From Neolewinella litorea (GTDB lineage: Bacteria > Bacteroidota > Bacteroidia > Chitinophagales > Saprospiraceae): 64,000 nt of DNA. Below, in pieces: positions 2,891-51,493 of this stretch. The notes beneath the pieces are model-generated. The model was not told where the DNA came from. It worked only from the letters and a program-made list of their open reading frames with translations, and ran no database searches. The position numbers and the translations under genes were made by a program. The stretch covers positions 868,501 to 932,500 of the forward strand of contig NZ_SRSF01000001.1 in NCBI RefSeq assembly GCF_004803465.1, read 5' to 3'. Within the stretch, counting starts at the first letter, position 1, and each line of letters opens with the position of its first letter.

Positions 2891-5767
2891 ATGCCCCGTC
2901 TCCTTTTTCTTTGCTCCCTCTTCCTGCTATACGGCACCTGCGTCCGCGCCCAACAGCCGACATCAGCCGCTGACCGTTTGGCTGGCTACGAACGCCGCCT
3001 GTCCCTGCAAGAAGGTTCCCCGCTGACCGGCCTGCCCTTTACCAACATCGGACCCTCCATCATGAGCGGCCGGGTTACGGACGTGGCGGTGGACCCCGCC
3101 GACCCCACCCACTTCTACGTAGCCTACGCCAGTGGAGGCCTATGGGAAACGACCGACAACGGTAGTACCTTCTCTCCCCTCTTCCAGCAGGAGGCTGTCA
3201 TGACCATCGGCGATATTGACGTACACTGGCCCAGCGGCACCATCTACATCGGTACCGGAGAGGTGAACAGCAGCCGCAGTTCCTACGCAGGCAATGGCGT
3301 GTACCGGTCCACCGACAAGGGCAAAAGCTGGTCGCATCTCGGCCTCGACGAAAGCCACCACATCGGCCGCGTGATCGTCGACCAGTCGAACCAGAATCGC
3401 CTGTGGGTAGCGGCACTGGGCCACCTGTACGGTCCCAACCCGGAGCGGGGGGTCTACCTCACCACCGACGGCGGAAAATCCTGGCAGAAGACCCTCTTTA
3501 TCAACGATTCCACCGGCGTAGTAGACCTGGTACGCGACCCACGAAAGCCCAACCAACTCTTTGCGGCAGCCTGGCAACGCGAACGTAAGGCCTGGGACTT
3601 TACGGAAAGCGGGCCGGGATCCGGAATTTACGCCAGTCCGGACGCCGGTAAAACCTGGTCGTTGATCACCCGCGAAGGACAGGGATTCCCTACCGGTCAG
3701 GGCGTGGGGCGGATCGGGCTCGCCGTGAGCTACGATTCCCGGGGGCGCCGCCACCTCTATGCAAGTCTCGACAACTACTTCCTGCGCGAGGCGGAGGCAC
3801 CCGACTCTACCGAACTGACCAAAAATCAACTGCGCAACATGCCCCGGGAGGATTTGCTGCGCCTGGAAACCTACCTGCTTGAGGACTTCCTGCGCTCCAA
3901 CGGCTTCCCGCGCGATCTCGACGCCAAGACCGTACGCGAACGGGTGGAGAAGGGCGACCTGTCGCCGCTGCAGCTCGTGCAGTACCTTGAGGATGCCAAC
4001 AGCACCCTCTTCGACACCCCCGTGAAGGGATTTGAGCTCTACCACACCACCAACGACGGCAAGAAGTGGGAGCGGACGCACGAGGATTACCTCGATGACG
4101 TCTACTACAGCTACGGATACTACTTCGGCGCACTGGCCGTCCATCCCGAGGATCCGCAAACCATTTACGCTATGGGGGTCCCGATCATCAAATCGACCGA
4201 CGGCGGTAAAACCTGGGCGGGAGCCAACGGCGACAACGTCCACGCCGACCACCACTTCATGTGGATCAATCCGGCGCAGCCCAATCACCTCATCAATGGC
4301 AACGACGGCGGAGTGAATATCAGCTACAACGGGGGCAAGAGCTGGTTCAAGGCCAACGTACCGCCCGTAGGGCAGTATTACGCCGTGGCGGTCGACAACC
4401 ACCCCGACGGCTACCGCGTGTATGGTGGATTGCAGGACAACGGCACGTGGCGGGGACCGCATGACTACGAGGCGAGCACCGACTGGCAACAGGACGGCAA
4501 ATACCCCTACGAAGCCCTCTTCGGCGGCGACGGAATGCAGGTCGAGGTCGATCCGCGGGACAATGAGACCGCTTACGTAGGCTTCCAGTTTGGTAATTAC
4601 TACCGCATCAATCCCAAGGAAGGCACCCGCACCTTCATCACGCCGAAGCACGAACTCGGGCAGCGCCCCTTCCGGTGGAACTGGCAGACGCCCATCCTGA
4701 TCAGCCCTCACCAGCCCGATATTTTTTATATGGGATCGAATCACTTTCACCGCAGTTTCGACCGGGGCGATAACTTCCAGACCCTTGGCCCCGACCTGAC
4801 CCGCGGCGGCCGGGCCGGTGACGTAGCCTTCGGAACGCTGACCACCATCGACGAGTCACCCCTGCGCTTTGGGCTGCTCTACGTCGGAAGCGACGACGGA
4901 CTGGTTCACCGCAGCATGGACGGCGGCCAGACCTGGCAACCCCTGCAGGGCTTCGCCGACAGCCTGTGGGTAGCGCGACTCGATGCATCGCACGCCGACG
5001 AGAAAGTGGTGTATCTGGGCCTCAACGGGTACCGCGACGACAATTTCGAAAGCTACGTTTACCGCAGCACCGATTACGGAGATACCTGGACACGCATCGG
5101 TACCGACCTGCCGGCCGAACCGGTGAACGTCATCAAGGAAGACCCCCTCAATCCGGCACTCCTTTACGTAGGAACAGATCACGGACTCTACGTCAGCCTG
5201 GATACCGGGCGCACCTTTACCGCCGCCCCCAACCTGCCCGCCGTCGCCGTCCACGATGTGGTAGTGCAAGAGCAGGCGAAGGACCTCATCGTCGGCACCC
5301 ACGGCCGCAGCCTTTACCGGGGTAACGTTTCGCTCCTGCAGCAGGTGGCCGGAAAGTCCACTCCGGCACTTTCCATTGCCGCGGTGGAAGACCAACGCTA
5401 CTCTTCCCGTTACGGCTCAGCCAGTTGGTTTACGGACGATACTACGCCTGAGGTGACGCTTCAGGTCTACAGCCCGAGCGCGGACGCGGGTGCCACGCTC
5501 ACCGTCAAAAGCGAGGATGGCGTGGTACTGACGCGGAAGCCAATCCGGCTCACGCAAGGCTTCAACACGGTGCCTTATGACCTCAGCTTTGACGCCGACA
5601 AGGCCGCGGATCTGGAAGCCCTGCTGAACAAGGATCGAAAGGACAACGAGAAGCCGGCCCGCGTGGAAGCCGCCGATAACGGGACCTTCTATCTGCGCCC
5701 CGGCAAATACACCCTGGTGGTCGAGGCGGATGGAAATTCGACCGAGGCTACCCTGACCGTCAAATAG
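2891..5767 (+). CDS. secreted VPS10/sortilin-like Asp-box (BNR) beta-propeller protein
   Basis: A 958-residue exported protein of the 'VPS10 domain/glycosyl hydrolase BNR repeat' type common in Bacteroidota. The ATG at 2891 is preferred over one at 2846 because it starts a signal peptide (MPRLLFLCSLFLLYG... ending VRAQ). At least eleven Asp-box motifs (S-x-D-x-G-x-T/S-W/F) are spread through the protein, for example STDKGKSWS, TTDGGKSWQ, STDGGKTWA, SYNGGKSWF and SLDTGRTFT, indicating two propellers. A helical insert lies at about residues 305-370 and a beta-rich C-terminal domain follows. No substrate can be named, and sialidase activity should not be assumed from Asp-boxes alone. The gene converges on the alcohol dehydrogenase gene with a 16-bp gap. 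Confidence 0.85.
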   Translation: MPRLLFLCSLFLLYGTCVRAQQPTSAADRLAGYERRLSLQEGSPLTGLPFTNIGPSIMSGRVTDVAVDPADPTHFYVAYASGGLWETTDNGSTFSPLFQQEAVMTIGDIDVHWPSGTIYIGTGEVNSSRSSYAGNGVYRSTDKGKSWSHLGLDESHHIGRVIVDQSNQNRLWVAALGHLYGPNPERGVYLTTDGGKSWQKTLFINDSTGVVDLVRDPRKPNQLFAAAWQRERKAWDFTESGPGSGIYASPDAGKTWSLITREGQGFPTGQGVGRIGLAVSYDSRGRRHLYASLDNYFLREAEAPDSTELTKNQLRNMPREDLLRLETYLLEDFLRSNGFPRDLDAKTVRERVEKGDLSPLQLVQYLEDANSTLFDTPVKGFELYHTTNDGKKWERTHEDYLDDVYYSYGYYFGALAVHPEDPQTIYAMGVPIIKSTDGGKTWAGANGDNVHADHHFMWINPAQPNHLINGNDGGVNISYNGGKSWFKANVPPVGQYYAVAVDNHPDGYRVYGGLQDNGTWRGPHDYEASTDWQQDGKYPYEALFGGDGMQVEVDPRDNETAYVGFQFGNYYRINPKEGTRTFITPKHELGQRPFRWNWQTPILISPHQPDIFYMGSNHFHRSFDRGDNFQTLGPDLTRGGRAGDVAFGTLTTIDESPLRFGLLYVGSDDGLVHRSMDGGQTWQPLQGFADSLWVARLDASHADEKVVYLGLNGYRDDNFESYVYRSTDYGDTWTRIGTDLPAEPVNVIKEDPLNPALLYVGTDHGLYVSLDTGRTFTAAPNLPAVAVHDVVVQEQAKDLIVGTHGRSLYRGNVSLLQQVAGKSTPALSIAAVEDQRYSSRYGSASWFTDDTTPEVTLQVYSPSADAGATLTVKSEDGVVLTRKPIRLTQGFNTVPYDLSFDADKAADLEALLNKDRKDNEKPARVEAADNGTFYLRPGKYTLVVEADGNSTEATLTVK

Positions 5768-5783
5768 TCGGCGGAATTCCGGA

Positions 5784-6956
5784 TCAGGGCTTCAGCACCA
5801 CCTTGATGCATCCGTCCTCCTTATCGCGGAACTTCTGGTACATCGCCGGGGCGTTCTCCAGTGGCTCGGTATGGGTGATCAGGAAGCTGGGGTCGATCTC
5901 CCCCTTCTGGATCTTGTTGAGCAGAGGTTGCATGTAGCGCTGTACGTGGGTTTGCCCCATCTTGAAAGTCAGTCCCTTGTTCATAGCCGGTCCCATGGGT
6001 ATGGTGGCCATTGATCCGTACACGCCGGGTATGGACAGCGTACCCCCCTTGCGGCAGGCCATGATGGCTTGCTGCAGGACGTAAGGACGATCCGATTGCA
6101 GATGGGCGGTCTGCTTCAGGCTGTCGGCGGCGGCACTCACCATATTCGAGGCGTGGGATTCGGCACCGACGGCATCGATACAACGATCCGGGCCGCGGCC
6201 GCCCGTCATTTCGTTGAGAAGTCCGACCACGTCATCCACTTCCGAGAAGTCGATCGTCTCTACCTGGCAGTGTTCGCGGGCCATTTGCAGTCGCTCCGGC
6301 ACCTGATCGATGGCGATCACCCGGCCGGCACCCATCATCCAGGCACTTTTCATGGTGAACAGACCTACTGGACCGCAGCCCCAGATGGCTACGGTATCAC
6401 CCTTGTCGATCTGGGCGTGCTCCGCGGCCATGTAGCCCGTGGGGAAGATGTCCGACAGAAACAACACCTTTTCATCCGGCAGATCGCTTTCGATCTTGAT
6501 CGTTCCGAGGTCGGCATAGGGTACGCGGAGGTATTCGGCCTGCCCGCCGGGTATGCCCCCCAGTAGGTGAGAATATCCATAGACCCCGGCCGGGGAGTGA
6601 CCCATGGCCTTGATAGCATTCTCGGGCTTCGGATTGGAATTGTCGCACATCGAATAGAGCTCCTTTTCGCAGAACCAGCAGTGGCCGCAGGAGATCGTGA
6701 ACGACACGACTACCCGATCACCTTTCTTGATGTTTTTCACCGCTGCACCAACCTCTTCGACAATGCCCATGGGCTCGTGGCCGATGATGTCACCGGCCTT
6801 CATCATGGCGATGAATCCGTCGTAAAGGTGCAGGTCGGATCCGCAAATGGCGGTTGAGGTTACGCGAATGATCGCGTCGGTAGGTTGCTCAATGCGGGGG
6901 TCGGGGTGGGTATCGACGCGGACGTCGCCCTGCCCGTGATAGGTTAATGCTCTCAT
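5784..6956 (-). CDS. zinc-dependent alcohol dehydrogenase (formaldehyde dehydrogenase-like MDR)
   Basis: A 390-residue medium-chain dehydrogenase/reductase. Catalytic-zinc ligands are visible at C38 (ICGSDLHLY) and H60-E61 (GHEPMG). The structural zinc lobe has C90, C93, C96 and C104. The NAD(P) fold shows GCGPVG near residue 195. The long insert around YGYSHLLGG and the overall length resemble the glutathione-independent formaldehyde dehydrogenase-like subgroup, but the substrate is not determinable. It stands alone, downstream of tamL in the same direction with a 118-bp gap that contains a hairpin, so it probably has its own promoter. Confidence 0.9.
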
Positions 6957-7017
6957 GTGCCTCGTTTGCTAATATAGCACAAGGGACTAGCAATGGTTCG
7001 GTTGTAAGTCTTGTTAG

Positions 7018-7048
7018 GCGATGGTTATTTTACTATATAGTCCATCGC
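7018..7048. repeat. small intergenic hairpin between tamL and the dehydrogenase gene
   Basis: A 7-bp inverted repeat (GCGATGG, 7018-7024, with CCATCGC, 7042-7048) encloses an A/T-rich loop with the palindrome ACTATATAGT. No T-run follows on the minus strand. It could be a weak terminator for tamL or an operator for the dehydrogenase gene. Confidence 0.3.
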
Positions 7049-7074
7049 GAACTTATCTGTTGTCGCCAGGGAAA

Positions 7075-9456
7075 TCAGAATGGATATCCAAAGGCCACCA
7101 CCAGGCGCAGACTCCGGTCCACCGGATCGCCTACGAACTCCTGGGGAATCTGAAAATTAGCGACCGTTTCCTCATATGGGATCTGGAACGGTTTGGCCAG
7201 ATCCAGGCGGAAGATTAAAAACGTGAGGTCGAAGCGGAAACCGATACCGTAGTTCATGGCCAGTTCGTTGAGGAATGCTTCCCGGCGGAAATCCGTATCC
7301 AAGGGCTCGGCTTCCGTCTTGTAGGTCCAAATATTGCCCGCGTCAACGAAGGCGGCCAGTTCGATGAGGGGGGTAACCTTTTGTCGGAATTCCACGCTTG
7401 TCTCCAGCAACAGGTTTCCGTAACCGCCCAGGGTGAGCAGGTTGTTGTTTTTCGGGGCGGTTCGACCCGGTCCGAGCTGCCGCGGCGCAAATCCCCGCAA
7501 GCTGTTCGGTCCGCCAATGGTGTACAGATCGAAGTAAGGGACGATGGCCCGATCGGAGATGGGATAAGCGACGCCTCCGTGCAGCCGCATCGCCAGCGTG
7601 GAGTTGCGGTTGAGGTTGTGGTAATACCGAAGATCGCTTTCCAGCTGAGGGTAAAGGCTTTGAATACGTTCACTGCGCATCAGGTCCTCGCCGAGGGGAA
7701 AGATATTGTTGAGGTTCATCGAGAGGTACTGCCGCCAGAAGAAGTTGTGCCGGTCTTCCCCGTCCAGTCGGGTATCGTAGGTGAGCGTGTAGTTCGGGGA
7801 GTAAACGATCATCCGGTCAAACCGGCTGGCGGCCGTAGCACTATTGGAGGCGTCGTTAAGCCCCAGGTTATTGGCCAGGCGCAGCACCCCTTCGTTGCTG
7901 ACAACGGGGTCCTGCAGGCGGACGCTGAGGGGGTTGAAAGCGTGGGTCTTTTTGATCCTGCGCTGCCAGGTATAGCCATATTGAGCTTTGATCTGCAGCA
8001 GACTCACCGTTTCCGAGGCGCTGGGGTCACCCTCCACGATTTGCTCGAGATCATCCAGGTTGAGGTCCGCGATTTCCTGCGAGAACTTGGCCAGGGTGAG
8101 CTGCAGCCGCTCCATCTTGGCCCCCAATGAGATGACGGTCCCGCTAGTCAGGACACGGGGAATGATCTTGCGCCGTTTCGGCAACCAGAGCCGCGGCACG
8201 TTCAGGGTGGCCGTAAGACCGTAGATACCCGAACGGGGCACGCGGATGTCTTCGGTATTACCGAGGAATACTACGTAGCTGAAGTCCCCTTCCAGCTTGA
8301 AGAGCTCCGCGCCCCGCAGGAGGTTGCGGTTCGTATAGGCAAGGCGAACGTTGGGGCCGACGTAACGGGCACTGTTATAGGTCAGGCCCACTTCCCCTTC
8401 GATGCGGCGGCGAGGCAAGGGCTCCATGTAAGCGTTCAGGACTAGCGTGGAATCGGATCCGGGCACTTCCTCGTAGTCGAGGCTGATGTAGCGAAAGGTG
8501 TTGTAGCTGGCCAGTCTCCGCAGCGTTTTCCGGTGCCGGTCGGGGTCATAGAGCAGTCCGCTTTCCACCGCGAAGCCCTCGTCCAGGATCTTCGGGCGCA
8601 GGGGACATTCGGCGCAGTGGATGGTCAGGCCTCCTACTTCGTAAACTGGCATGGCGGCCCGGCTGAGGGTATCGGTCACGTTCACGTTGGGGTAGACGTG
8701 AATATCCACTATCCGCTGAGGTTTGAGGTGTTCGACGGGTACATCCGTCTTTATTTTGGCCAGCATCTTTACCTCCCGGTCGCCCTGCACGGTATCCGCC
8801 AGAAACAGAAAATCGTTGGCATTGGCGTAGAAGTAGCCCTGCTGCTTGAGAATCTGCTGCCACCTTTGCCGCTCCGCCTTAATAGCGTCAAGATCGTATT
8901 GGTCGCCGGGGGAAAGCAGGCTTTCCTGCTGCACGCTGTCCAGGATGCGCGCCACGCTGGAATCGCTCCAGAAGTGCCGCACGGTGTCGAGAGAATAGGG
9001 GCTGTTGACCGTGATGGTGTAGTCCACGCTTACTTCCCGGTCCTGCTCACTGGTGTCGACCGTGTAGCTCGCCTCGTGCTCAAAGTAGCCGTTGTTGGCC
9101 GCTCGGTTTTCCAGCAGGTTGGTCAAGCCTTCCGCCACCGTCTCCCGGAAAAAAATGGGTTCTTCCCCTTTCGTTTCGTCGGGGTCGTCGGCATACTTCT
9201 CCGGCTTCTTCGCTTTCTTCTCCTCGAATTTGTAGTAGCGCCAGATGTTGCGGTAGCCGATCAGGGGTATCTTCTGGTTGGTATTCTGGTCGAGTACGGC
9301 CGTCAGTTCGGTTTCAAGTTGGGCCACGTCCACGCTGTCGGGGGCCTCGACGGAGACCGAAGCTCCGCGGTACAGGTATTCACCGGGCGGCAGGAAGCGG
9401 GTGACATTACACCCCATGGTAGTGATGGCGGTCAGAATCAGTAGTAGTCGCCCCAT
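7075..9456 (-). CDS. tamL: TamL-type outer membrane BamA-family lipoprotein
   Basis: A 793-residue Omp85/BamA-superfamily protein. It has a lipoprotein signal with Cys at residue 16 (ITTMGC), POTRA-like N-terminal half (about 30-390), and a C-terminal 16-strand-type barrel region with SLRGFAPRQLGP, matching the conserved (V/I)RG(F/Y) motif of lid loop 6. It ends in an aromatic residue (VVAFGYPF), as outer-membrane barrels do. In Bacteroidota the TamA counterpart is a lipoprotein (TamL) paired with TamB, which fits here. The start ATG overlaps the tamB stop by one base (TAATG), showing translational coupling. Role inferred: insertion or assembly of outer-membrane proteins or envelope lipid transport together with TamB. 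Confidence 0.88.
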   Translation of the reverse strand: MGRLLLILTAITTMGCNVTRFLPPGEYLYRGASVSVEAPDSVDVAQLETELTAVLDQNTNQKIPLIGYRNIWRYYKFEEKKAKKPEKYADDPDETKGEEPIFFRETVAEGLTNLLENRAANNGYFEHEASYTVDTSEQDREVSVDYTITVNSPYSLDTVRHFWSDSSVARILDSVQQESLLSPGDQYDLDAIKAERQRWQQILKQQGYFYANANDFLFLADTVQGDREVKMLAKIKTDVPVEHLKPQRIVDIHVYPNVNVTDTLSRAAMPVYEVGGLTIHCAECPLRPKILDEGFAVESGLLYDPDRHRKTLRRLASYNTFRYISLDYEEVPGSDSTLVLNAYMEPLPRRRIEGEVGLTYNSARYVGPNVRLAYTNRNLLRGAELFKLEGDFSYVVFLGNTEDIRVPRSGIYGLTATLNVPRLWLPKRRKIIPRVLTSGTVISLGAKMERLQLTLAKFSQEIADLNLDDLEQIVEGDPSASETVSLLQIKAQYGYTWQRRIKKTHAFNPLSVRLQDPVVSNEGVLRLANNLGLNDASNSATAASRFDRMIVYSPNYTLTYDTRLDGEDRHNFFWRQYLSMNLNNIFPLGEDLMRSERIQSLYPQLESDLRYYHNLNRNSTLAMRLHGGVAYPISDRAIVPYFDLYTIGGPNSLRGFAPRQLGPGRTAPKNNNLLTLGGYGNLLLETSVEFRQKVTPLIELAAFVDAGNIWTYKTEAEPLDTDFRREAFLNELAMNYGIGFRFDLTFLIFRLDLAKPFQIPYEETVANFQIPQEFVGDPVDRSLRLVVAFGYPF

Positions 9457-42426: not shown

Positions 42427-42954
42427 TATACGTTTGGGATAGATAAAGGAATCACGGCCTACAAAAGCGGTAACATCCTGTTAAAAGTAGTAAAAAAGCG
42501 CATTTATTGGCAAAAATATTATCCTTCCGCCGTGAACATGCTGCTTTGATCTGTTTTATAGTCCATCAATTTTGCCAAAAAAAGTCACCCGATTTCGAGT
42601 GACGAAATCGGGTGACGAACTCATTTTGCCAAAAAACCGTGGCGACTGAGTCATGAATTGATGTACAAAGTGTCTCCAAGTAGCTATATGCTTAATTCGC
42701 CTAAACTGGTGTTGTCATAGTGCCTCTCTCTGTGTCAAATCGGAATCTCTAATTCTTTAGCTTGAGCCAAATGTAGGGGCTCCTCTACCCTCTCCGCAAC
42801 GTTGAGCCACCATATGTGCTGAACGGTAATACCTGTGTTACGAATGGTAAAAAAGTGAGGGACTAAGCGGGGCTTCGGACTTTGTCGAAGCAGTATGTGC
42901 ATACTTTCGCGCCCGGGATTTGCGAAAACCGCTACCCCGCGTAGCTTAGCCGCC
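42427..42954. other. 528-bp intergenic region with a hairpin and flanking direct repeats
   Basis: No convincing gene. It holds the promoters of the histidine kinase (minus) and the fusion enzyme (plus), and the hairpin element listed separately. TACTTTCG, one base off the -7 consensus, is at about 42902-42909, some 45 bp before the plus-strand start. A minus-strand ORF at 42735-42995 was not accepted. Confidence 0.5.
42570..42636. repeat. 14-bp perfect hairpin flanked by a 13-bp direct repeat
   Basis: GTCACCCGATTTCG (42584-42597) and its exact reverse complement (42603-42616) form a 14-bp stem with loop AGTGA. The direct repeat TTTTGCCAAAAAA flanks it at 42570-42582 and 42624-42636. On the minus strand the stem is followed by seven T residues, so it would act as a terminator there, though no minus-strand gene is recognised upstream of it. 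It could be a small RNA 3' end or a small repeat element. Confidence 0.55.
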
Positions 42955-45900
42955 ATGATCGCCACCGACCTCCTGCCGCGCTTATTTGATTCCATCGGAT
43001 TACCCTACCCGGTGGGGGAAGATGCCGGAGATGAGGCCTTATCCGTCACCCCCCTGCCCGGTGAGGTGGACCAGAATTTTCACCTTTCCCTCCCGAACGG
43101 AGCGGAGTACCTGCTCAAGATCAGCGCCCCCGAGAGTTTCGATCAGGCCCCCATCCTGCGCTTCCTTGCAAACCGCGAGCTGCCCTTCGCCACCCCCCGC
43201 ATTGTGGCTTCTCTCGACCCCGATCAGGCTGCCGGCCACGGGAGCGTGCGCCTGCATAGCTGGGTACCGGGACGCCCCCTCGACAATGTGACGCCCCGTA
43301 CAGCAGCCCTGCGCCGGAATTGGGGGGCTACCTGCGGCCATCTGGCCCACGCCCTGCAAGATCTCGATCTGCCGGCCGCGCACCGTGTTTACAAGTGGGA
43401 TCCCGCCGCGGCGTCCGGCGCCCGCCGCTTGGTCCCGCTGCTGACGGGGGAAGAAGTCGCACTTGCCAACTACTTTTTCGACTTGGTGGACGGTTGTGAC
43501 TTTGACAGATTGCGGCGGAGCGTCTGCTACAACGATGCCCACGAGCACAACCTGCTGGTGGATCAAACGGGGGAGGCCATCTGCGGGGTGATCGATTTCG
43601 GCGACACGGTGTACACCGCGACCATCAGCGAACTGGCAGTAGCCTGCGCCTACGCCGGAATGTCGGAACCCGATCCGCTCGGGGCCATGCGCGATGTGGT
43701 CGAGGGTTTCTACTCCGTCTTTCCGGTTACCGATGAAGAGCTAGCCGCCCTATTCCCCCTGATCTGCGGCCGGTTGTTGCTCACCGTTACCGCGGCCGCG
43801 GAAAACCGTCGGCTCAAGCCCGACAACGCCTACCTGTCCATCTCCGAAGCTCCCGCCTGGGCGTTGCTGCGTCGCTTACGCGAAGTGCATCCGGTGCTTG
43901 CCCTGGCCACCTTCCGGGTCGCCACCGACCGATCGGCCCACCCCCGGCTCCGCACATTCCTGGACTGGGCCGCCACGGCCGCTCCTGCGCCGGTGATGGC
44001 CCTAGAAGGACGTCTTGTTCCGATTGACCTCGGTGTGGGCAGTCGGCAGCTCGGTCTCAATCGCAATTTCGAGCAGTTGCCGGCCTTCGTCAAGCACATG
44101 CGCCGGGTGCTGGAGGACCTGGACGCCGACATCGGAGTAGGCGGGTACGGGGAGGTCAGGCCCGTCTACACCACCGATGCCTTCGCCGGGGAGGGAAACA
44201 GTGGTCCTCGCTGGCGGAGCGTACACCTCGGCCTGGACTTCTGGGCGCGCGATTCCGGCGGGACGGTCTTCGCTCCCATCGACGGCACGGTCCGGCACTG
44301 CGGTATCGACCCCACCCCGGGCGGCTACGGCGGCACCCTTATTCTGAGCCACGAACCCATTCCCGGACTTACCTTTCATTCCCTTTTCGGGCATCTCTCT
44401 CCGGCCTCCATAGCCCATTTTCCGGCGGGGACGCAGGTGCAGCGCGGTCAGGCTATCGCCCGGTTGGGTGGTTCCGATGAGAACGGCGGTTGGCCGCCCC
44501 ACCTGCATTTCCAGTTGATGCTCGACTTGCTGGACCGCGGCGCTGAATTCCCGGGCGTCGCCTACCCTGAGGAGCGCGACATCTGGCTCGGCATTTGCCC
44601 TGATCCGCGGATCCTTATCCCGCAGCCCGTGCCTGCGGAGAGCCCTTCTCTGCCGCCGACGGAGGAAATGCGCCAACAGCGAGACCACAAGCTGGGGTAC
44701 AGCCTGAGTGTATCTTACCACCGCCCGCTGACCGTGCTCCGTGGTTCGGGCAGCTACCTGTACGATGACCGGGGACGGCGGTTCCTCGATACGGTCAACA
44801 ACGTGGCGCACGTCGGGCACGAGCACCCCCGCGTAGTAGAGGCGATTCAGCGCCAGGCCGCCGTCCTCAACACCAACAGCCGCTACCTCCACCCCACCAT
44901 TCTGGAATTGGCGGATGAACTTACCAACCTGCTGCCCGACGAACTGAGCGTGGTACATTTCGTCAACTCCGGCAGCGAGGCCAACGAACTGGCCCTGCGC
45001 ATGGCCGAAGCGGTAACCGGCACCCGCAGGGTACTGGCCATGGAAATGGGGTACCACGGCAACACCACCCGTACGATCGACGTCAGCAGCTACAAATTCG
45101 GTCGCCGGGGCGGCGCCGGCCGGCCCGCGGAAACCGTACTCCTGCCCCTGCCCGACCAGCTCCGACGCCGCCACCTGCAGCCCGATTGGGATACGAATGA
45201 CGACGCTCCCCGCACCTTCATTGCCGAGTCCATTCTGAGTTGCGGGGGCCAGTTGATGCTGCCCCCGGGCTACCTCGATTCCGTATTCAAACGGGTCCGA
45301 GCGCACGGCGGCATCACTATCGCCGATGAGGTGCAAACGGGCCTGGGTCGCGTAGGCAGCCACTGGTGGGCCTTCGAACTGCAGGGCGTGGTACCCGACA
45401 TCGTCACCATCGGAAAACCCTTCGGAAACGGGCACCCTTTGGCGGCCGTTGTCTGTACAACCCGAGTGGCGGAGGCTTTCGCCAACGGCATGGAGTACTT
45501 CAACACCTTCGGTGGCAATCCGGTCAGCTGCGCCGCCGGACTGGCGGTGCTGACCACGCTACGGGAAGAAGGACTAAAACAACGGGCCGCTGAAGTCGGC
45601 GGGTACCTGACCGGACTGCTCAATCAGTTGCGCGCCAACTATCCACTGATTGCTGAAGTACGCGGTGCCGGACTCTTCCTCGGCTTTGAACTCACGGGGA
45701 AAGACCTTGCACCCGCGACCGCGCCCGCATCCTACCTGAAGAACCGAATGCGTGAACTGGGTTTCCTGATGAGTACCGACGGTCCGCACGAAAACGTCAT
45801 CAAGATCAAGCCCCCCCTGTGCTTCACCCGCGCGCAGGCCGAGCGCCTGGTGGACTTTCTGGACCGGGTGTTGCGGGAGGATAAAATGCAGATACGGTAG
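42955..45900 (+). CDS. trifunctional fusion: APH-type kinase, M23 peptidase, class III PLP phospho-lyase
   Basis: A 981-residue protein from the ATG at 42955 (MIATDLLPRLF). Domain 1 (about 1-340) is an aminoglycoside/hydroxylysine-kinase-like kinase with catalytic D194 in NDAHEHN and D214 in IDFGD. Domain 2 (about 395-560) is an M23 metallopeptidase fold with zinc ligands H424, D428 and H518 (HLGLD, HLHF). Domain 3 (about 575-981) is a class III aminotransferase fold with FVNSGSEANELAL, ADEVQTGLGRVGSHWW and PLP Lys821 in GKPFGNGHPL. The stretch GMEYFNTFGGNPVSC closely resembles animal ETNPPL/PHYKPL phospho-lyases. Substrate, probably phosphoethanolamine or 5-phosphohydroxylysine made by the fused kinase, is inferred. 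The start of domain 3 lacks any join sequence, so this is a true single frame. Confidence 0.9.
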   Translation: MIATDLLPRLFDSIGLPYPVGEDAGDEALSVTPLPGEVDQNFHLSLPNGAEYLLKISAPESFDQAPILRFLANRELPFATPRIVASLDPDQAAGHGSVRLHSWVPGRPLDNVTPRTAALRRNWGATCGHLAHALQDLDLPAAHRVYKWDPAAASGARRLVPLLTGEEVALANYFFDLVDGCDFDRLRRSVCYNDAHEHNLLVDQTGEAICGVIDFGDTVYTATISELAVACAYAGMSEPDPLGAMRDVVEGFYSVFPVTDEELAALFPLICGRLLLTVTAAAENRRLKPDNAYLSISEAPAWALLRRLREVHPVLALATFRVATDRSAHPRLRTFLDWAATAAPAPVMALEGRLVPIDLGVGSRQLGLNRNFEQLPAFVKHMRRVLEDLDADIGVGGYGEVRPVYTTDAFAGEGNSGPRWRSVHLGLDFWARDSGGTVFAPIDGTVRHCGIDPTPGGYGGTLILSHEPIPGLTFHSLFGHLSPASIAHFPAGTQVQRGQAIARLGGSDENGGWPPHLHFQLMLDLLDRGAEFPGVAYPEERDIWLGICPDPRILIPQPVPAESPSLPPTEEMRQQRDHKLGYSLSVSYHRPLTVLRGSGSYLYDDRGRRFLDTVNNVAHVGHEHPRVVEAIQRQAAVLNTNSRYLHPTILELADELTNLLPDELSVVHFVNSGSEANELALRMAEAVTGTRRVLAMEMGYHGNTTRTIDVSSYKFGRRGGAGRPAETVLLPLPDQLRRRHLQPDWDTNDDAPRTFIAESILSCGGQLMLPPGYLDSVFKRVRAHGGITIADEVQTGLGRVGSHWWAFELQGVVPDIVTIGKPFGNGHPLAAVVCTTRVAEAFANGMEYFNTFGGNPVSCAAGLAVLTTLREEGLKQRAAEVGGYLTGLLNQLRANYPLIAEVRGAGLFLGFELTGKDLAPATAPASYLKNRMRELGFLMSTDGPHENVIKIKPPLCFTRAQAERLVDFLDRVLREDKMQIR

Positions 45901-46176: not shown

Positions 46177-47490
46177 ATGGGTCCACTGTACCCACTTCTA
46201 TCCGCAGCCAGTTGCTTGCTGCTGCTATTTATCCATTCCTCCTGTACACCAACTGCGGAGCGTTCTACCGGAACCGTCCATGTAGATTACGCCGATTCTA
46301 CGGGCTACCACCTGGTGCGAAACGGACAACCCTTCGTAGTGAAGGGGGGAGCCGGTGCCAATCACTTGCCTTTACTAAAAGAACTGGGGGGGAATACCGT
46401 AAGGGTATACGACCCCGCCAAACTGGAAGCGACCCTCGAGCAGGCCGAAACATTGGGACTGGCAGTCGTGGCGGATATTCCCCTGCCCGCATATTACCGG
46501 GGGGAGGATTATGTCGGACTTTCCCAGCCGGGACTTACGGATTCCGTACTTGCGGTGGTGGATCGGTTCCGGGACCATCCCGCCCTACTGTTCTGGATGC
46601 TGGGCAATGAGGTCTTCACCGAGGGATACGACCGCGCCTACATGAAGCGCTACAATGCCCTGGCGCGGGCCGTACGCGAACACGATCCCAACCACCCCAT
46701 CAGTACCGGGGTCATCCCCCATCAGCTGCTCAAATTGAAAATAAGCCTGACGGGCCCCGACGTGGATTTTCTGTCGCTGAACATTTTCGGCAACCTGTCG
46801 AATTTCGACCAACTGAAAAAGTACCTCACCCCAATCTGGCGTGGACCGTACCTGATCTCGGAATGGAGCTTCAACGGTCCGTGGGAAGCTGAAAATACCC
46901 TGTGGGGAGCCCCCATTGAATCTCCCAGTCCTACCAAAGCCACTCATCTGGCGGAACGCTACCGGCGTGATTTGGCCGATCCCGAGTCGGACCGTATGCT
47001 GGGCGATCTTGTGTTTTACTGGGGCCAGAAGTACGAGCGCACCCCCACCTGGTTCAGTCTGCTGAGCCCGGAGGGTGCCGTGAGCGAGATGGCCTTTGCG
47101 CTGGGCAACATATGGCAAGGGCGTCAGTTACCGTTTCCCGGTCCGCGCGTAGAATACCTGTTGCTGAATGAAATGGGTGCCCGGGACAACATCTTCCTCA
47201 CCCCCGGCGCGGAGGCGACGGCGACCGTGCGCTACCTTACTGAACCGGTTGGCAACCTCACGGTGAGATGGGAAATCCGGGCCGAAGACTGGCTGGGGCG
47301 CGGAGAGGTAGGCGCCGGCCCGGAGGCCTTGCCCGGCCTATTTAAATCGACTAGCTTAACAGAGGCAACTTTCCAGGCTCCGCTCGCTCCCGGTCCTTAC
47401 CGCATCTTATACCAGGTGATGGACACTGCCGGATACTTTGCTACGGCCAACATTCCCTTTTACGTACTTTCCCCTGCACATGCTAAATGA
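46177..47490 (+). CDS. lipoprotein TIM-barrel glycoside hydrolase (GH2/GH5-like)
   Basis: A 437-residue lipoprotein (signal to Cys23, HSSC). The TIM barrel begins with VRNGQPFVVKGGAGANH and LGGNTVRVYD, and has the clan A catalytic pair: acid/base E145 in FWMLGNEVF and nucleophile E229 in LISEWSFNG. The C-terminal part (about 340-437) is a beta-rich Ig-like domain. It precedes and overlaps the GT2 synthase gene by 11 bp, so the two are translationally coupled. A role in trimming or remodelling the polysaccharide made by that synthase is inferred. The exact GH family and linkage are undecided. Confidence 0.85.
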   Translation: MGPLYPLLSAASCLLLLFIHSSCTPTAERSTGTVHVDYADSTGYHLVRNGQPFVVKGGAGANHLPLLKELGGNTVRVYDPAKLEATLEQAETLGLAVVADIPLPAYYRGEDYVGLSQPGLTDSVLAVVDRFRDHPALLFWMLGNEVFTEGYDRAYMKRYNALARAVREHDPNHPISTGVIPHQLLKLKISLTGPDVDFLSLNIFGNLSNFDQLKKYLTPIWRGPYLISEWSFNGPWEAENTLWGAPIESPSPTKATHLAERYRRDLADPESDRMLGDLVFYWGQKYERTPTWFSLLSPEGAVSEMAFALGNIWQGRQLPFPGPRVEYLLLNEMGARDNIFLTPGAEATATVRYLTEPVGNLTVRWEIRAEDWLGRGEVGAGPEALPGLFKSTSLTEATFQAPLAPGPYRILYQVMDTAGYFATANIPFYVLSPAHAK

Positions 47491-50400
47491 CCCCGTAGTC
47501 CGGAACCCTACCGAAGGCGAACAGATCATCATACGGTTGCTGATCGTCACGGGATTGTTGTGCATTCTCAATTTTAGCTACTTCTTCTTTCAGCCCCAGT
47601 ATTTCGGCCACCCGCTGCTGTTTACCCTGCTTTGTATTGTACTTGCCTACGGATTGATCCGCGACCTTACCCTGTGGTATTACTACGCCTCCATTACGGT
47701 TCCGGAGACGCCAGAACTGAAACGGCATTTCACGGTGGATATCCTCACCACCTACTTCCCAGGGGAACCGTACGACATGATCGTCAATACCCTGACGGCG
47801 ATACAGAACATCACGTACCCGCACACCACTTACCTGTGCGACGAGGCCAATGATCCTTACCTTAAGGAACTGTGCGCCGAGATGGGCATCGTGCACGTGA
47901 CCCGCACCGTCCGCGTAGACGCCAAAGCCGGCAACATCAACAACGCGCTGCGGCAGGCTACGGGGGAGATTTGTCTGGTGCTGGATCCCGATCACGTCCC
48001 GCAACCGGATTTCCTCGATCACATCGTACCCCACTTTCAGGATGAGTCCATCGGCTTCGTACAAACGGTACAGGCCTACTACAATAAGTTTGACACCGTA
48101 GTAGCCAAGGGTTCGGCCCAGCAGACCTTCCACTTCTACGGGCCGATGATGATGACCATGAATGCCTACGGGACGGTCAATGCCATCGGTGCCAACTGTA
48201 CCTTCCGCCGCAAGGCCCTCGACAGCATCGGTGGCCACGCACCGGGCCTGGCGGAAGATATGCACACCGCTATGCTCCTGTACCGGGAGGGCTGGAAGTC
48301 GGTATACGTGCCCCGCATCCTGGCCAAGGGGCTCGTACCCGCTACCATTACTGCCTACTTCAAGCAACAGCTGAAGTGGTCCAGGGGCACCTTCGACCTG
48401 TTCGTCAAGGTCTACCCCCGCATCTTCTCCAAATTGACGTGGAGGCAACGACTCCACTACGCGCTGTTGCCGGTGCACTACCTGGCCGGGGTGATTTACC
48501 TCATCGGTTTCTTCATTCCTATTTTATCACTGGTGCTTTCCGAGGCTCCGTGGACGGGCAACTTTGTCTACTTCCTGATCATCATCGGCCCCGTGCTTTT
48601 CACCTCCTTCATTCTGCGTTTCTACATCCAGAAGTGGTTGATTTCGGACGATGAACGCGGGTTCCATATCGTCGGGGGAATCCTGGAGATCATCACCTGG
48701 TGGATCTTCACCCTCGGGTTCGTGTATACAATCTTTGATAAGAAGGTACCCTACTTGCCCACCCCCAAAGAAGGAGAGGACGTAACCCATTTCTCGCTGT
48801 TGCTGCCGAACCTGGCCATCGGCGTACTTTCGCTTGGCGCGATCGCGTATGGCTTACCGCGGGACTTTACGCCTTTCTCCATCATCATGGCCGGATTTGC
48901 GCTGCTGAACGCCGCTTTCATGTTCTTCAGCGTTTATCTTGCCTTTGCCGTCACTAACGAGACCGGGAATCTGAGGGAGCGGTTGCCGGCCCCGGCGCGC
49001 ACCCTTGGTCGGCACGCCAAACGCCAGCTGCTCTGGGCGCTGGATACCATGACCCTTACCGTGCGAAAACTCGCTCCCCTGCTGCTGGTCGGGGTACTGG
49101 TTTCCGCCCTGACCCTGATGTCTATATACGACCGACAGGGATTTGCTATGATTGAGTCCGTTCCCACCACCGTTGAGCTTTCCACTACTCCGCTCCTGGG
49201 TATCTTTTATCCGGCGGGACCTACGGGATTAACCTCCCTCGAGCGGGTGACGGAACTGGAAGACCGCTTACTGACGCATACCGACATCATTTCCAGCTAC
49301 ATCCCCTGGAGTGGCAGTGCAGATCCGGAGGCGGAAATGCAACACCTGCAGGATATTGTTGAACGGGGCTCCACCCCCCTGATCACCTGGGAACCCTGGG
49401 TCAGCCACTTTCCCGGTAGCGACAGCATGGCAGCTCTTGCCCGGGAAGAGCAAGCCCTCTCCTACATTGCCAACGGACGATTCGACGATTACATCAACGC
49501 TTTTGCGGGGCGGGTAGCCAGGCTGGAGAAGCCGGTCTACCTGCGCTTCGCCCATGAGTTTGACAATCCCGACTACCCCTGGTCGCCCCGCGGCAATAAC
49601 CAACCGGAAGACTTCGTGGCTGCCTGGCGACACGTTCATAACCTGTTCCAGCAAGCGGGCGCCAAGAACGTCCGCTGGGTCTGGAACCCCTGGAAGCCCA
49701 AGGCTATGCAGGAGTACTATCCCGGAGAGGCCTACGTGGATTTCGTGGGACTGACAAACCTGAACTATGGCCCTCTGGAGGGCGGTCCGCAGTCAAACTC
49801 CTTCACCGACCTCTATGCTCCCTTCGCTGCGGCGATGGAGGATCTGCCCGGGGAAGATGTTATCCTGGCGGAGTTCGGTACGCTTGGGACGCCCGCCGAA
49901 AAGCGGGACTGGCTGGTAGCGGCGCGGCGAAGCATTCTGGAAGATCACCCCGAAATCAGGGCCATTGTCGCCTTCAACAGCGCCTTTGACAGGAACATTC
50001 CCCAGGGCGCGGACTATCCGGGCGATGTACTGGATTGGACCGCCGATCCGGCCTTGCTCTTCAACCCCGAAACAGCCGCGAACTTCGTGTCCATCCGGGA
50101 GGCTGAATGCTGGGCCCCACCTGCCGCCTCCACCTACCTTGCCCTGCCCGACCGACCGGTGCGGGCCGTGGGGTACAAGAAAGGCGAAGGCTGGAGTACG
50201 CACCAGTACGTTCCTTCCCGCGCCAATCTGGAACACGATTTCAGTCTGATGCGCGAAGCAGGCATCAACACCATCCGGATCACCAATCCGGGAATCTACG
50301 CCCACAACCTTTTTACTATTTCGCAGGAATACGGACTGGACGTTATAATGAATTTCTGGATCCCGGAAACCCACGATTTCGTGTCCGACACGCTCGAGTT

Positions 50401-51277
50401 GGCCGAGCTTCGGGAGCAAATACTAGAGAAGGTGGCCAACAACCGCGACCGTGGCACCCTGCTGCACTACAGTTTCGGCAACGACCTGCTGGCCCGCCTT
50501 GCTGACCTCCACCTACAGCCGAACCTCCACGCCCAGCGCATCGCTTACCTGAATTGGTTGGGCGGCCTTATCCAGGACATCAAGAAACTGGACGATCGGC
50601 ATCCGGTGATGATCTCCGTACTCGCCGCGCCCGGCGTTGAGCGAGTGATTGAAGACTTCCACCTGCTCAAGGGGCCCGCCGACGCGGTAGGCCTGATCGT
50701 GGGCAGTCTGACTTCCCTGGAACGGGTAAGGCATCTTACGGAGCAATACAAAGGTCGGCTGGTAGTCAGCGATATCGGGATCGAACCGCTCCGCAATTTG
50801 AGGAAGAGCGAGGAGTCCCAATACACGGTGATCAACAACTGGCAGAACGAGTGGCGCCGCACCAAACTGACCTTTGACGGACTGCTGGATTTCCGGGCCC
50901 GGCGTACCCCCACCTTTACGGCGGTGGCGAATTACTGGAACGACGATAAAGCCCAGGACGTAGAAATTCCCGAAATCGCCGTCCTTCCCCCCGCGCTGCA
51001 GCCCTATGTGGGTGGCATCTACCACTACCGCGCCATGGTGCTTGACGAGAAGGGCTGGGTACCGGCCGACAGCCTGGCCCTCGAGAAATATACTTTTGAA
51101 TGGAGCCTGGTGAAACTGGATACCTTCCAGAATCCCATTGCGCTGAAGATGCTTAAGGAGGAAGGCCCCGTACTGAAACTTGCCATGCCGCCCAACCACC
51201 TTCAGTATCGGGTATTGCTTACCGCCACGGACGGCCGTTACAGCCGATCGGCTCAGTCTCCACTGCTACCGCGCTGA
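47480..51277 (+). CDS. membrane GT2 polysaccharide synthase fused to GH26-like and second TIM-barrel domains
   Basis: A 1265-residue protein. The ATG at 47480 overlaps the preceding gene by 11 bp. Residues 1-75 carry two transmembrane helices. The GT2 domain has D169-P-D171 (VLDPDHVPQP), A-E-D at 258-260 (LAEDMHTAM) and Q296-Q-L-K-W300, where the usual R of the QxxRW motif is K. About six more transmembrane helices follow (330-560). A GH26-like domain (about 575-880) has H692-E693 (RFAHEFDNP) and E798 (ILAEFGTLG). The final domain (about 895-1265) resembles the upstream glycosidase but has D1002 (FGNDLL) and D1098 (VVSDIGIEP) where catalytic Glu are expected. It probably makes and processes a beta-glycan; the product is unknown. 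Confidence 0.88.
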   Translation: MLNDPVVRNPTEGEQIIIRLLIVTGLLCILNFSYFFFQPQYFGHPLLFTLLCIVLAYGLIRDLTLWYYYASITVPETPELKRHFTVDILTTYFPGEPYDMIVNTLTAIQNITYPHTTYLCDEANDPYLKELCAEMGIVHVTRTVRVDAKAGNINNALRQATGEICLVLDPDHVPQPDFLDHIVPHFQDESIGFVQTVQAYYNKFDTVVAKGSAQQTFHFYGPMMMTMNAYGTVNAIGANCTFRRKALDSIGGHAPGLAEDMHTAMLLYREGWKSVYVPRILAKGLVPATITAYFKQQLKWSRGTFDLFVKVYPRIFSKLTWRQRLHYALLPVHYLAGVIYLIGFFIPILSLVLSEAPWTGNFVYFLIIIGPVLFTSFILRFYIQKWLISDDERGFHIVGGILEIITWWIFTLGFVYTIFDKKVPYLPTPKEGEDVTHFSLLLPNLAIGVLSLGAIAYGLPRDFTPFSIIMAGFALLNAAFMFFSVYLAFAVTNETGNLRERLPAPARTLGRHAKRQLLWALDTMTLTVRKLAPLLLVGVLVSALTLMSIYDRQGFAMIESVPTTVELSTTPLLGIFYPAGPTGLTSLERVTELEDRLLTHTDIISSYIPWSGSADPEAEMQHLQDIVERGSTPLITWEPWVSHFPGSDSMAALAREEQALSYIANGRFDDYINAFAGRVARLEKPVYLRFAHEFDNPDYPWSPRGNNQPEDFVAAWRHVHNLFQQAGAKNVRWVWNPWKPKAMQEYYPGEAYVDFVGLTNLNYGPLEGGPQSNSFTDLYAPFAAAMEDLPGEDVILAEFGTLGTPAEKRDWLVAARRSILEDHPEIRAIVAFNSAFDRNIPQGADYPGDVLDWTADPALLFNPETAANFVSIREAECWAPPAASTYLALPDRPVRAVGYKKGEGWSTHQYVPSRANLEHDFSLMREAGINTIRITNPGIYAHNLFTISQEYGLDVIMNFWIPETHDFVSDTLELAELREQILEKVANNRDRGTLLHYSFGNDLLARLADLHLQPNLHAQRIAYLNWLGGLIQDIKKLDDRHPVMISVLAAPGVERVIEDFHLLKGPADAVGLIVGSLTSLERVRHLTEQYKGRLVVSDIGIEPLRNLRKSEESQYTVINNWQNEWRRTKLTFDGLLDFRARRTPTFTAVANYWNDDKAQDVEIPEIAVLPPALQPYVGGIYHYRAMVLDEKGWVPADSLALEKYTFEWSLVKLDTFQNPIALKMLKEEGPVLKLAMPPNHLQYRVLLTATDGRYSRSAQSPLLPR

Positions 51278-51320: not shown

Positions 51321-51327
51321 TTCCCAG

Positions 51328-51402
51328 TCGGGGCACCAGGATTCGAACCTGGGGCCTCCTGCTCCCAAAGCAGGCACGCTAACCGGACTGCGCTATGCCC
51401 CG
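51328..51402 (-). tRNA. tRNA-Pro (anticodon TGG)
   Basis: A 75-nt cloverleaf on the minus strand. Acceptor CGGGGCA (51402-51396) pairs with TGCCCCG, and the discriminator A is at 51328. Anticodon stem-loop CCTGC-TTTGGGA-GCAGG gives anticodon TGG (51367-51365). T-arm CCAGG-TTCGAAT-CCTGG. CCA is not encoded. It lies 3 bp after tRNA-Ser. Confidence 0.95.
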
Positions 51403-51405
51403 TGG

Positions 51406-51493
51406 CGGAGACGGCGGGATTCGAACCCGCGGTACCCTGTTAGGGTACGTCGATTTAGCAAACCGGTGGTTTCAGCCACTCACCCACGTCTCC
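51406..51493 (-). tRNA. tRNA-Ser (anticodon GCT)
   Basis: An 88-nt type II tRNA on the minus strand. Acceptor GGAGACG (51493-51487) pairs with CGTCTCC (51413-51407), discriminator G at 51406. Anticodon loop TTGCTAA gives GCT. The long variable arm is GTACCC-TAACA-GGGTAC, and the T-arm is GCGGG-TTCGAAT-CCCGC. It is transcribed with tRNA-Pro. Confidence 0.95.

Follow-up and report, generated by a model that had tools for sequence, protein, structure and literature searches.

Why should a membrane-bound polysaccharide synthase carry two glycosidase-like domains in its own polypeptide chain, one of them devoid of its catalytic residues, next to a gene that encodes an intact relative of that same domain? 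The question is raised by a locus of Neolewinella litorea (GCF_004803465.1, contig NZ_SRSF01000001.1, positions 868,501-932,500), a stretch of 64,000 nt that is referred to as the window throughout. Two open reading frames (ORFs) on the same (+) strand overlap by 11 bp; the upstream one encodes a homologue of endo-beta-1,3-glucanases of glycoside hydrolase family 158 (GH158), and the downstream one a fusion protein in which a glycosyltransferase family 2 (GT2) synthase is followed by a GH26 domain and by a GH158-fold domain that has lost its catalytic Glu pair (Table 1). We propose that the two proteins probably form the core of a beta-glucan synthesis system whose synthase carries its own periplasmic processing head. 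A first-pass annotation of the DNA had already proposed two glycosidase-like domains fused to a synthase, and its residue numbers are exact for the fusion protein (D169, D171, E259, Q296, W300, E693, E798, D1002 and D1098) as well as for the upstream protein (E145 and E229).

Domains and catalytic residues of the two proteins

Domain searches and a structural model bear out that GT2 synthase, GH26 domain and a third TIM barrel reside in a single chain. The N-terminal part aligns with the structure of the cellulose synthase BcsA (5ej1) at 2.4e-33 over residues 82-533, with the DxD, ED and Q..xW motifs in register (phmmer). The NCBIfam cellulose synthase profile (CelA, TIGR03030) matches it at 3.4e-50, but with 170.8 bits it lies far under the cut-off of 699.1, and the fusion protein is not a BcsA equivalog; by the same profiles the GT2 part is BcsA-like rather than MdoH-like (3.4e-4). 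The Pfam list of the fusion protein, to E=1, contains no PilZ domain and no GH17, the GH26 domain and GH158 fold standing in place of the latter, and a search of the own genome returned no match to BcsB. Hydropathy indicates a pair of N-terminal segments and several in the middle, the final one lying at 531-549. By analogy with BcsA we take the segment 397-419 to be an interface helix, and because of this assignment the GH domains would be located on the periplasmic side of the inner membrane. The lysine of the QxxKW motif had been singled out as an oddity that might bear on the product; it is instead the norm of the family (87/87 rows with a letter there, 9/9 variant rows), and was dropped as a product signal since it is uninformative here. 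A plasmid search for characterised mixed-linkage or curdlan synthases near the GT2 part yielded 507 records, all below 60% identity; among the 40 matches listed identities were 24-33%, and the entries were named bcsA, cellulose synthase or glycosyltransferase or were nameless.

The central domain belongs to GH26 by profile (PF02156; 34.5 bits, with the cut-off at 20.2), and both Glu are present as proposed: E693 is aligned with chain position 109 of CtLic26A and E798 with position 222, the catalytic residues of that enzyme. CtLic26A, a beta-1,3-1,4-glucanase (lichenase), is the nearest solved relative of the domain on its own (1.1e-20); when the whole fusion protein is searched it is found at 5.9e-19, followed by a beta-1,3-xylanase at 2e-7 and mannanases at 1e-4 or worse. 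The domain may be hydrolytic or transglycosylating.

Residues 868-1265 have no Pfam match to E=1 but are related to the upstream protein. The last domain aligns with it at E=1e-8 and 25% identity (pairwise BLAST), placing D1002 on E145 and D1098 on E229. Residues 564-1265 were modelled with AlphaFold from 83 sequences, at a mean predicted local distance difference test score (pLDDT) of 90.9; in the model D1002 (model residue 439) follows strand 431-436 and D1098 (model residue 535) lies inside strand 531-536. With these strands counted as beta-4 and beta-7, the model puts both Asp at the clan GH-A catalytic positions, as the first-pass annotation had anticipated, the placement being read from strand positions and match tables rather than from superposed coordinates. 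A Foldseek search with the model returned CtLic26A entries at ranks 1-7 and then the GH158 structures 6pal (8.7e-15, TM-score by target 0.61) and 9p26 (1.1e-14). The domain thus has the GH158 fold, and with Asp at both positions of the Glu pair it is not classed as a GH158 enzyme. The profile searches gave GT2 and GH26 as expected, but not the GH2/GH5-like family that had been foreseen for the last domain: sequence hits of that kind were weak (GH2-type, E 0.42 and worse), and the model together with the pairwise alignment leads to GH158 instead. We also looked for a lack of GH26 or TIM-barrel matches across residues 575-1265 and for a different Glu pair at the catalytic positions; the outcome favours the original proposal.

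Over its full length the upstream protein is homologous to GH158 enzymes (GH158(Pro) 9oro, 1.7e-47; BuGH158 6pal, 3.1e-40; phmmer), and its N144, E145 and E229 align with N136, E137 and E220 of BuGH158, so that the GH158 motif is complete and both Glu are retained as claimed. BuGH158 is an endo-beta-1,3-glucanase in which all three residues are reported to be essential, Ala at any of them having abolished activity (PMC7157763). The GH158 crystal structures among the matches include crystals soaked with laminaritetraose and G4G3G. The description of the upstream protein as a lipoprotein is uncertain: its lipobox is non-canonical (HSSC), and Cys signals occur in only part of the partner proteins encoded next to related synthases. 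A strict lipobox pattern is found in 30/92 partners and a Cys after a hydrophobic stretch, by a loose rule, in 57/92; the rule finds none in 35/92, though at least four of these 35 show a Cys by eye. Up to 35/92 partners look membrane-anchored without a Cys.

Table 1. Features of the synthase locus and of the distal genes. Positions are those of the window unless a locus or contig is named.
Feature	Position	Strand	Basis
GH158-type endo-beta-1,3-glucanase homologue, 437 aa, N-terminal secretion/anchor signal, catalytic pair intact	46177..47490	+	ORF; homology
GT2-GH26-pseudoGH158 fusion, 1265 aa	47480..51277	+	ORF with ATG at 47480; domain searches, model
BcsA-like membrane GT2 synthase part, residues 1-560, including last hydrophobic segment	47480..49159	+	phmmer, NCBIfam, hydropathy
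QQLKW motif, residues 296-300	48365..48379	+	K in 87/87 rows with a letter there
GH26 domain, both Glu present, residues 575-855	49202..50044	+	PF02156; CtLic26A; Foldseek
GH26 acid/base E693	49556..49558	+	aligned with CtLic26A chain position 109; after strand counted beta-4 in model
GH26 nucleophile E798	49871..49873	+	aligned with CtLic26A chain position 222; in strand counted beta-7 in model
GH158-fold TIM barrel without catalytic Glu pair, residues 868-1160	50081..50959	+	homology to upstream protein; model; Foldseek
D1002 at acid/base position	50483..50485	+	alignment, model, residue table
D1098 at nucleophile position	50771..50773	+	alignment, model, residue table
C-terminal beta-sandwich (Ig-like) domain as in GH158 proteins, residues 1165-1265	50972..51274	+	model strands; BuGH158 Ig-like domain; W1208 kept 84/84
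Transmembrane protein with sulfatase/LtaS-fold domain, 810 aa	L123:4252-6684; own genome C1:184251-186680		upstream of tandem GH26, 4-base overlap
Membrane-anchored tandem GH26	L123:6681-8411; own genome G000:C1:186743-188407		second GH26 hit of genome, 0.7 Mb from synthase

Recurrence of the fusion and loss of the fused catalytic pair

With the GT2 part alone as query (E<=1e-70), relatives were found in 15 of the 296 genomes of a class sample that includes our own, i.e. in 14/295 others; the whole protein, at 1e-60, found relatives in 7/40 genomes, own included. All three domains are joined at 8 of the 15 places outside the own genome, the remainder having GT2 and the C-terminal domain (3), GT2 and GH26 (3) or GT2 only (1). 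A query with the GH26 and C-terminal domains gave 246 relatives in named genomes, and the 80 of these that were kept come from Flavobacteriaceae, Chitinophaga, Sphingobacteriaceae, Prolixibacteraceae, Balneolia and others. In the pooled, de-duplicated set of 97 GT2 rows, which leans to close relatives since most loci were fetched with the GH26 and C-terminal part as query, 87 have all three domains, 4 GT2 and the C-terminal domain, 3 GT2 and GH26, and 3 GT2 only (L003-L007, being the window and duplicates of L043-L046, and L027 and L033, duplicates of L114 and L122, were dropped). The fusion is conserved in relatives, and the recurrence of three-domain frames in both samples rules out a chance fusion or an annotation artefact.

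The partner gene lies upstream on the same strand for 85/96 synthase rows, elsewhere in the locus for 7 and is absent from the locus for 4; in this count the partial L074 synthase ORF was assigned a downstream partner, and the contig of L085 is short. Once frames antisense to the two core genes are left out, the largest cluster of other neighbour genes comprises 12 loci. The own genome aside, a separate GH158 at 1e-30 is present in 12/14 synthase carriers; the exceptions are G171 (L037), whose fused GH158 is itself intact, and the distant, GT2-only G288. At the thresholds used, 30 class genomes that lack the synthase also contain GH158 homologues, and the family is therefore not specific to the synthase system.

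Some loci deviate from the common layout. The distant relatives L040:5790-8695 and L042:4925-7691 have GT2 and GH26 as separate adjacent genes, with a TPR gene upstream in L042. In L034, L035 and L039 the synthase is joined to a GH26-like domain without the HE motif, no C-terminal domain was detected and the GH158 partner is on the opposite strand. In Gelidibacter sediminis a break inside the GT2 part divides the synthase frame into two ORFs (L065:4330-8112), and Chitinophaga japonensis has two nearby copies (L074:1-2919 and 4261-8124), the first of which is cut at the locus end.

The three glycosidase modules differ sharply in the retention of their catalytic residues. Partners keep both Glu, and indeed the entire GH158 set of N-E plus Glu, in 92/92 rows; the fused GH26 domains keep the first Glu in 87/88 and the second in 86/88, the exceptions being L030 and L036. 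In the fused C-terminal domain, by comparison, the pair is absent from 84/88 rows and complete in four (L030, L031, L036 and L037), in a set that leans to close relatives. Its replacements comprise D, N, T, S, G, Q, K and gaps; D occupies the acid/base position in 40/88, and the nucleophile position is acidic (E or D) in 41/88. L038, outside the 88 rows because no GH26 was detected in it, has a GH158 pair that looks intact by eye; the acid/base residue is Thr in L029 and L032. Accordingly a live-looking GH26 is combined with a dead GH158 domain in some lineages, the reverse holds for L030, L036 and by eye L038, and both appear live in L031 and L037.

These combinations are not scattered over the GT2 tree. 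A main clade of 85 rows (support 100) holds the window protein, whose nearest row is that of Neolewinella marina (88% identity in the GT2 part), and the rows with an intact fused GH158 (L030, L038, L031, L036 and L037) all fall outside it; the tree was made by a quick method with a midpoint root, and three of the five intact rows sit on branches with support of about 90. Truncated or split entries (L085, the first L074 copy and the second L065 piece) were left off the tree and kept in the 88-row residue table. The simplest reading is that the ancestral fused GH158 was active and became inactive at the base of the main clade or close to it. Conservation of the Glu-to-Asp changes, a check suggested by the first-pass annotation, holds to the extent that the pair is lost in the main clade, but the replacements vary and distant fused relatives keep the pair.

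The dead domains nevertheless do not drift without constraint. Among the 84, the equivalents of Trp140, Asn144 and Trp282 are kept in 76, 69 and 83, respectively, W1208 in 84/84, and Q1122, a feature of the dead group, likewise in 84/84. Ratios of non-synonymous to synonymous substitution (Ka/Ks) for the dead TIM barrel are 0.083-0.234 in 14/14 close pairs, compared with 0.022-0.087 for the GT2 part and 0.061-0.154 for GH26 (13 pairs with a value). By these estimates the dead domain is under purifying selection, a pattern that supports a retained non-catalytic job with a constraint weaker than that on the enzymes; a binding or scaffold role, as originally suggested, fits both the retained Asn and Trp residues and a Ka/Ks well below 1.

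Proposed mechanism, distal genes and rival explanations

We propose that glucose units from a cytoplasmic nucleotide sugar are joined by the GT2 part and that the chain leaves the cytoplasm through its transmembrane channel, as in BcsA. Tethered after the last transmembrane helix, the GH26 domain would cut or transglycosylate the emerging chain, probably at beta-1,3-1,4 or beta-1,3 linkages; the GH158-fold domain, no longer cutting, would hold or guide either the chain or the partner enzyme, and the GH158 protein of the overlapping gene, with its catalytic pair intact, would trim or finish the product. That product would be a beta-1,3 or mixed-linkage glucan; we read it as a beta-glucan because each of the two GH modules has a beta-glucanase as its closest solved relative and the GT2 part matches BcsA.

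Two further genes, distant from the synthase in N. litorea, may belong to the same route. The tandem GH26 protein consists of halves that align with each other at 6e-26; by eye, in the alignment, the second copy has both Glu in 17/17 rows and the first lacks the Glu at the nucleophile position in 17/17. The gene upstream of it encodes a sulfatase-fold protein (PF00884, 6e-39) whose best NCBIfam match is LtaS (NF053595), at 60.2 bits against a cut-off of 970, so that it is not an LtaS equivalog; its model (pLDDT 81.9) has fold hits to 3lxq, LtaP, LtaS and sulfatases. At the place of the sulfatase Cys/Ser, located by motif spacing and by eye, 9 of the 10 covering rows have Thr and one has Ser. 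Thr at that place marks phosphotransferases. In the class sample the synthase is present in 4/4 other genomes with the tandem GH26 (Fisher 3e-6) and in 6/6 others with the transferase at 1e-60 (Fisher 3e-9), against the background of 14/295, and in a genus sample in 3/3 others with the tandem GH26 (Fisher 0.004); these values treat genomes as independent though they are related, the tandem-GH26 carriers coming from two families and the transferase carriers from five. All four genes stand in a row in L068; in L076 and L080 the partner and then the synthase are preceded by the tandem GH26 and, ahead of that, by a transferase truncated at the locus end. The gene immediately after the synthase is the tandem GH26 in L062, L081, L091, L095, L029 and L032, and the transferase in L031. 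G007 has the synthase without the tandem GH26, and 6/14 other synthase carriers have neither gene at the thresholds used; both parts are therefore optional. Where present they would trim and decorate the glucan, perhaps making it a decorated periplasmic one. Tentatively, one may go further and envisage a hitherto undescribed four-protein periplasmic beta-glucan pathway of Bacteroidota, OPG-like (osmoregulated periplasmic glucan) in function and built from other parts, namely the fusion synthase, the intact GH158, the tandem GH26 and an LtaS-like enzyme for phospho-substituents, in which dead glycosidases hold the chain while intact ones cut it to length; as a whole this extended scheme is rather unlikely to hold.

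Several observations weigh against the proposed core system. The segment 397-419 could, from its hydropathy, be a transmembrane helix, in which case the GH domains would be inside, and the GH26 family includes mannanases and xylanases besides glucanases. In the GT2-only sample 5/11 fused C-terminal domains keep both Glu (L030, L031, L036, L037 and, by eye, L038), as do 6/11 fused GH26 domains, making the dead C-terminal domain a trait of the main clade and not of the architecture. Its cleft is not intact: 81-84 of the 84 dead domains have gaps at the conserved partner sites 243-262 that come right behind the nucleophile, and most have other residues at the equivalents of Trp236 and Trp292, so that the domain could be purely structural. 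Its Ka/Ks exceeds that of the GT2 part in 14/14 pairs; GH26 gives a value in 13 of them, and in 12 of these the dead barrel is again the higher.

The same data bear on what the system makes and where. An extracellular biofilm glucan, i.e. a cellulose- or mixed-linkage-type exopolysaccharide whose release or length is tuned by hydrolases, as BcsZ does with BcsA, would agree with the closeness of the GT2 part to BcsA, with the lipid anchor of some partners (30/92 strict, 57/92 loose), which would allow an outer-membrane location, and with the separate GT2 and GH26 genes of L040 and L042 and the TPR gene of the latter. We nonetheless hold it to be somewhat unlikely, as no BcsB was found in the own genome and the Pfam list has no PilZ, no candidate exporter is common to the loci (the largest cluster of other neighbours spans 12 loci, clusters not being annotated individually) and up to 35/92 partners look membrane-anchored without a Cys.

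A wide range of polymers is made by GT2 polymerases, and the GH modules might merely resemble glucanases while the product is, for instance, a beta-mannan or beta-1,3-xylan. The mannanases and xylanases within GH26, the branches of the family (PMC6556568) and the beta-1,3-xylanase that is the next solved relative after CtLic26A speak for such a product; it is improbable all the same, given that both GH families of the unit have glucanases as closest solved relatives (CtLic26A at 5.9e-19, whereas the xylanase reaches 2e-7 and no mannanase does better than 1e-4). That the C-terminal domain is still catalytic through D1002 and D1098 or another residue, for example as a slow transglycosylase, might be read from the frequency of acidic residues at the two positions. 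The other replacements, the sites missing just past the nucleophile and the loss of BuGH158 activity on Ala substitution of N136, E137 or E220 (PMC7157763) render this very improbable.

If the proposed core system is correct, it constitutes a recurrent beta-glucan route in Bacteroidota and Balneolota, in a class in which none of 296 sampled genomes yielded the classical periplasmic glucan protein OpgG. It would also provide a clear case of a glycosidase domain losing catalysis inside a synthase, with a catalytic sister in the next gene and intact relatives on outer branches for comparison, and a warning against taking GH158 and GH26 genes in such genomes as a sure sign of glucan breakdown.

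Two neighbouring features of the window are recorded here for completeness: a 1001-aa frame at 42895-45900 (+) joins APH phosphotransferase, peptidase M23 and class III aminotransferase domains, and tRNA-Pro(tgg) and tRNA-Ser(gct) lie directly 3' of the fusion gene on the opposite strand, at 51327-51493 (-).

Comparison with known systems

BcsZ is the cognate hydrolase of the cellulose synthase BcsA. The fusion shares with this pair the GT2 motifs, the transmembrane layout and a hydrolase tied to the synthase; unlike it, the fusion shows no PilZ in its Pfam list and no BcsB was found in the genome, and its hydrolases are of other families, one of them fused. The osmoregulated periplasmic glucan system consists of opgGH with the phosphoglycerol transferase OpgB. 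It likewise combines an inner-membrane GT2 with a transferase of the LtaS/sulfatase superfamily, here encoded elsewhere in the genome; however, OpgG (MdoG, PF04349) was found in 0/296 class genomes, own included, with E. coli as a positive control, and the GT2 is BcsA-like rather than MdoH-like. A classical OPG operon was rejected because MdoG was not found in the class sample, and a standard cellulose operon because BcsB was not found in the own genome.

BgsA of S. meliloti and RiGT2 of R. ilealis are (1,3;1,4)-beta-glucan synthases, GT2 enzymes with D,D,D,QxxRW motifs and a product of the kind proposed here (PMC10374906); they differ in the R, rather than K, of QxxRW and in the PilZ domain of RiGT2, and the available part of that paper mentions no fused GH for either. 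With BuGH158 and GH158(Pro) the upstream protein shares its full length and the catalytic residues, and the C-terminal domain the TIM barrel and Ig fold; BuGH158 itself sits in a glucan utilization locus (PMC7157763), whereas here the gene overlaps that of a synthase, and the catalytic pair is gone from the fused copy.

Among published designs the nearest is that of the pseudomonad 'Orphan'/NdvB protein, a GH17-TM-GT2 (TM, transmembrane) protein proposed to make cyclic beta-glucan (PMC10237404). In both cases a BcsA-like GT2 is fused to a periplasmic TIM-barrel glycosidase, which in Orphan/NdvB is proposed to cut and transglycosylate beta-1,3-glucan. Orphan/NdvB differs in having a single, N-terminal GH17 domain, and the available text of PMC10237404 mentions neither a dead GH nor a GH158 partner; the fusion described here has no GH17 joined to its GT2 and carries GH26 and a dead GH158 domain after the last transmembrane segment. 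Among the listed titles and abstract openings of the open-licence literature searched none dealt with a GT2-GH26-GH158 protein, and the layout appears to be an undescribed variant of the known glucan-making machines in which a synthase works with a cognate glycosidase.

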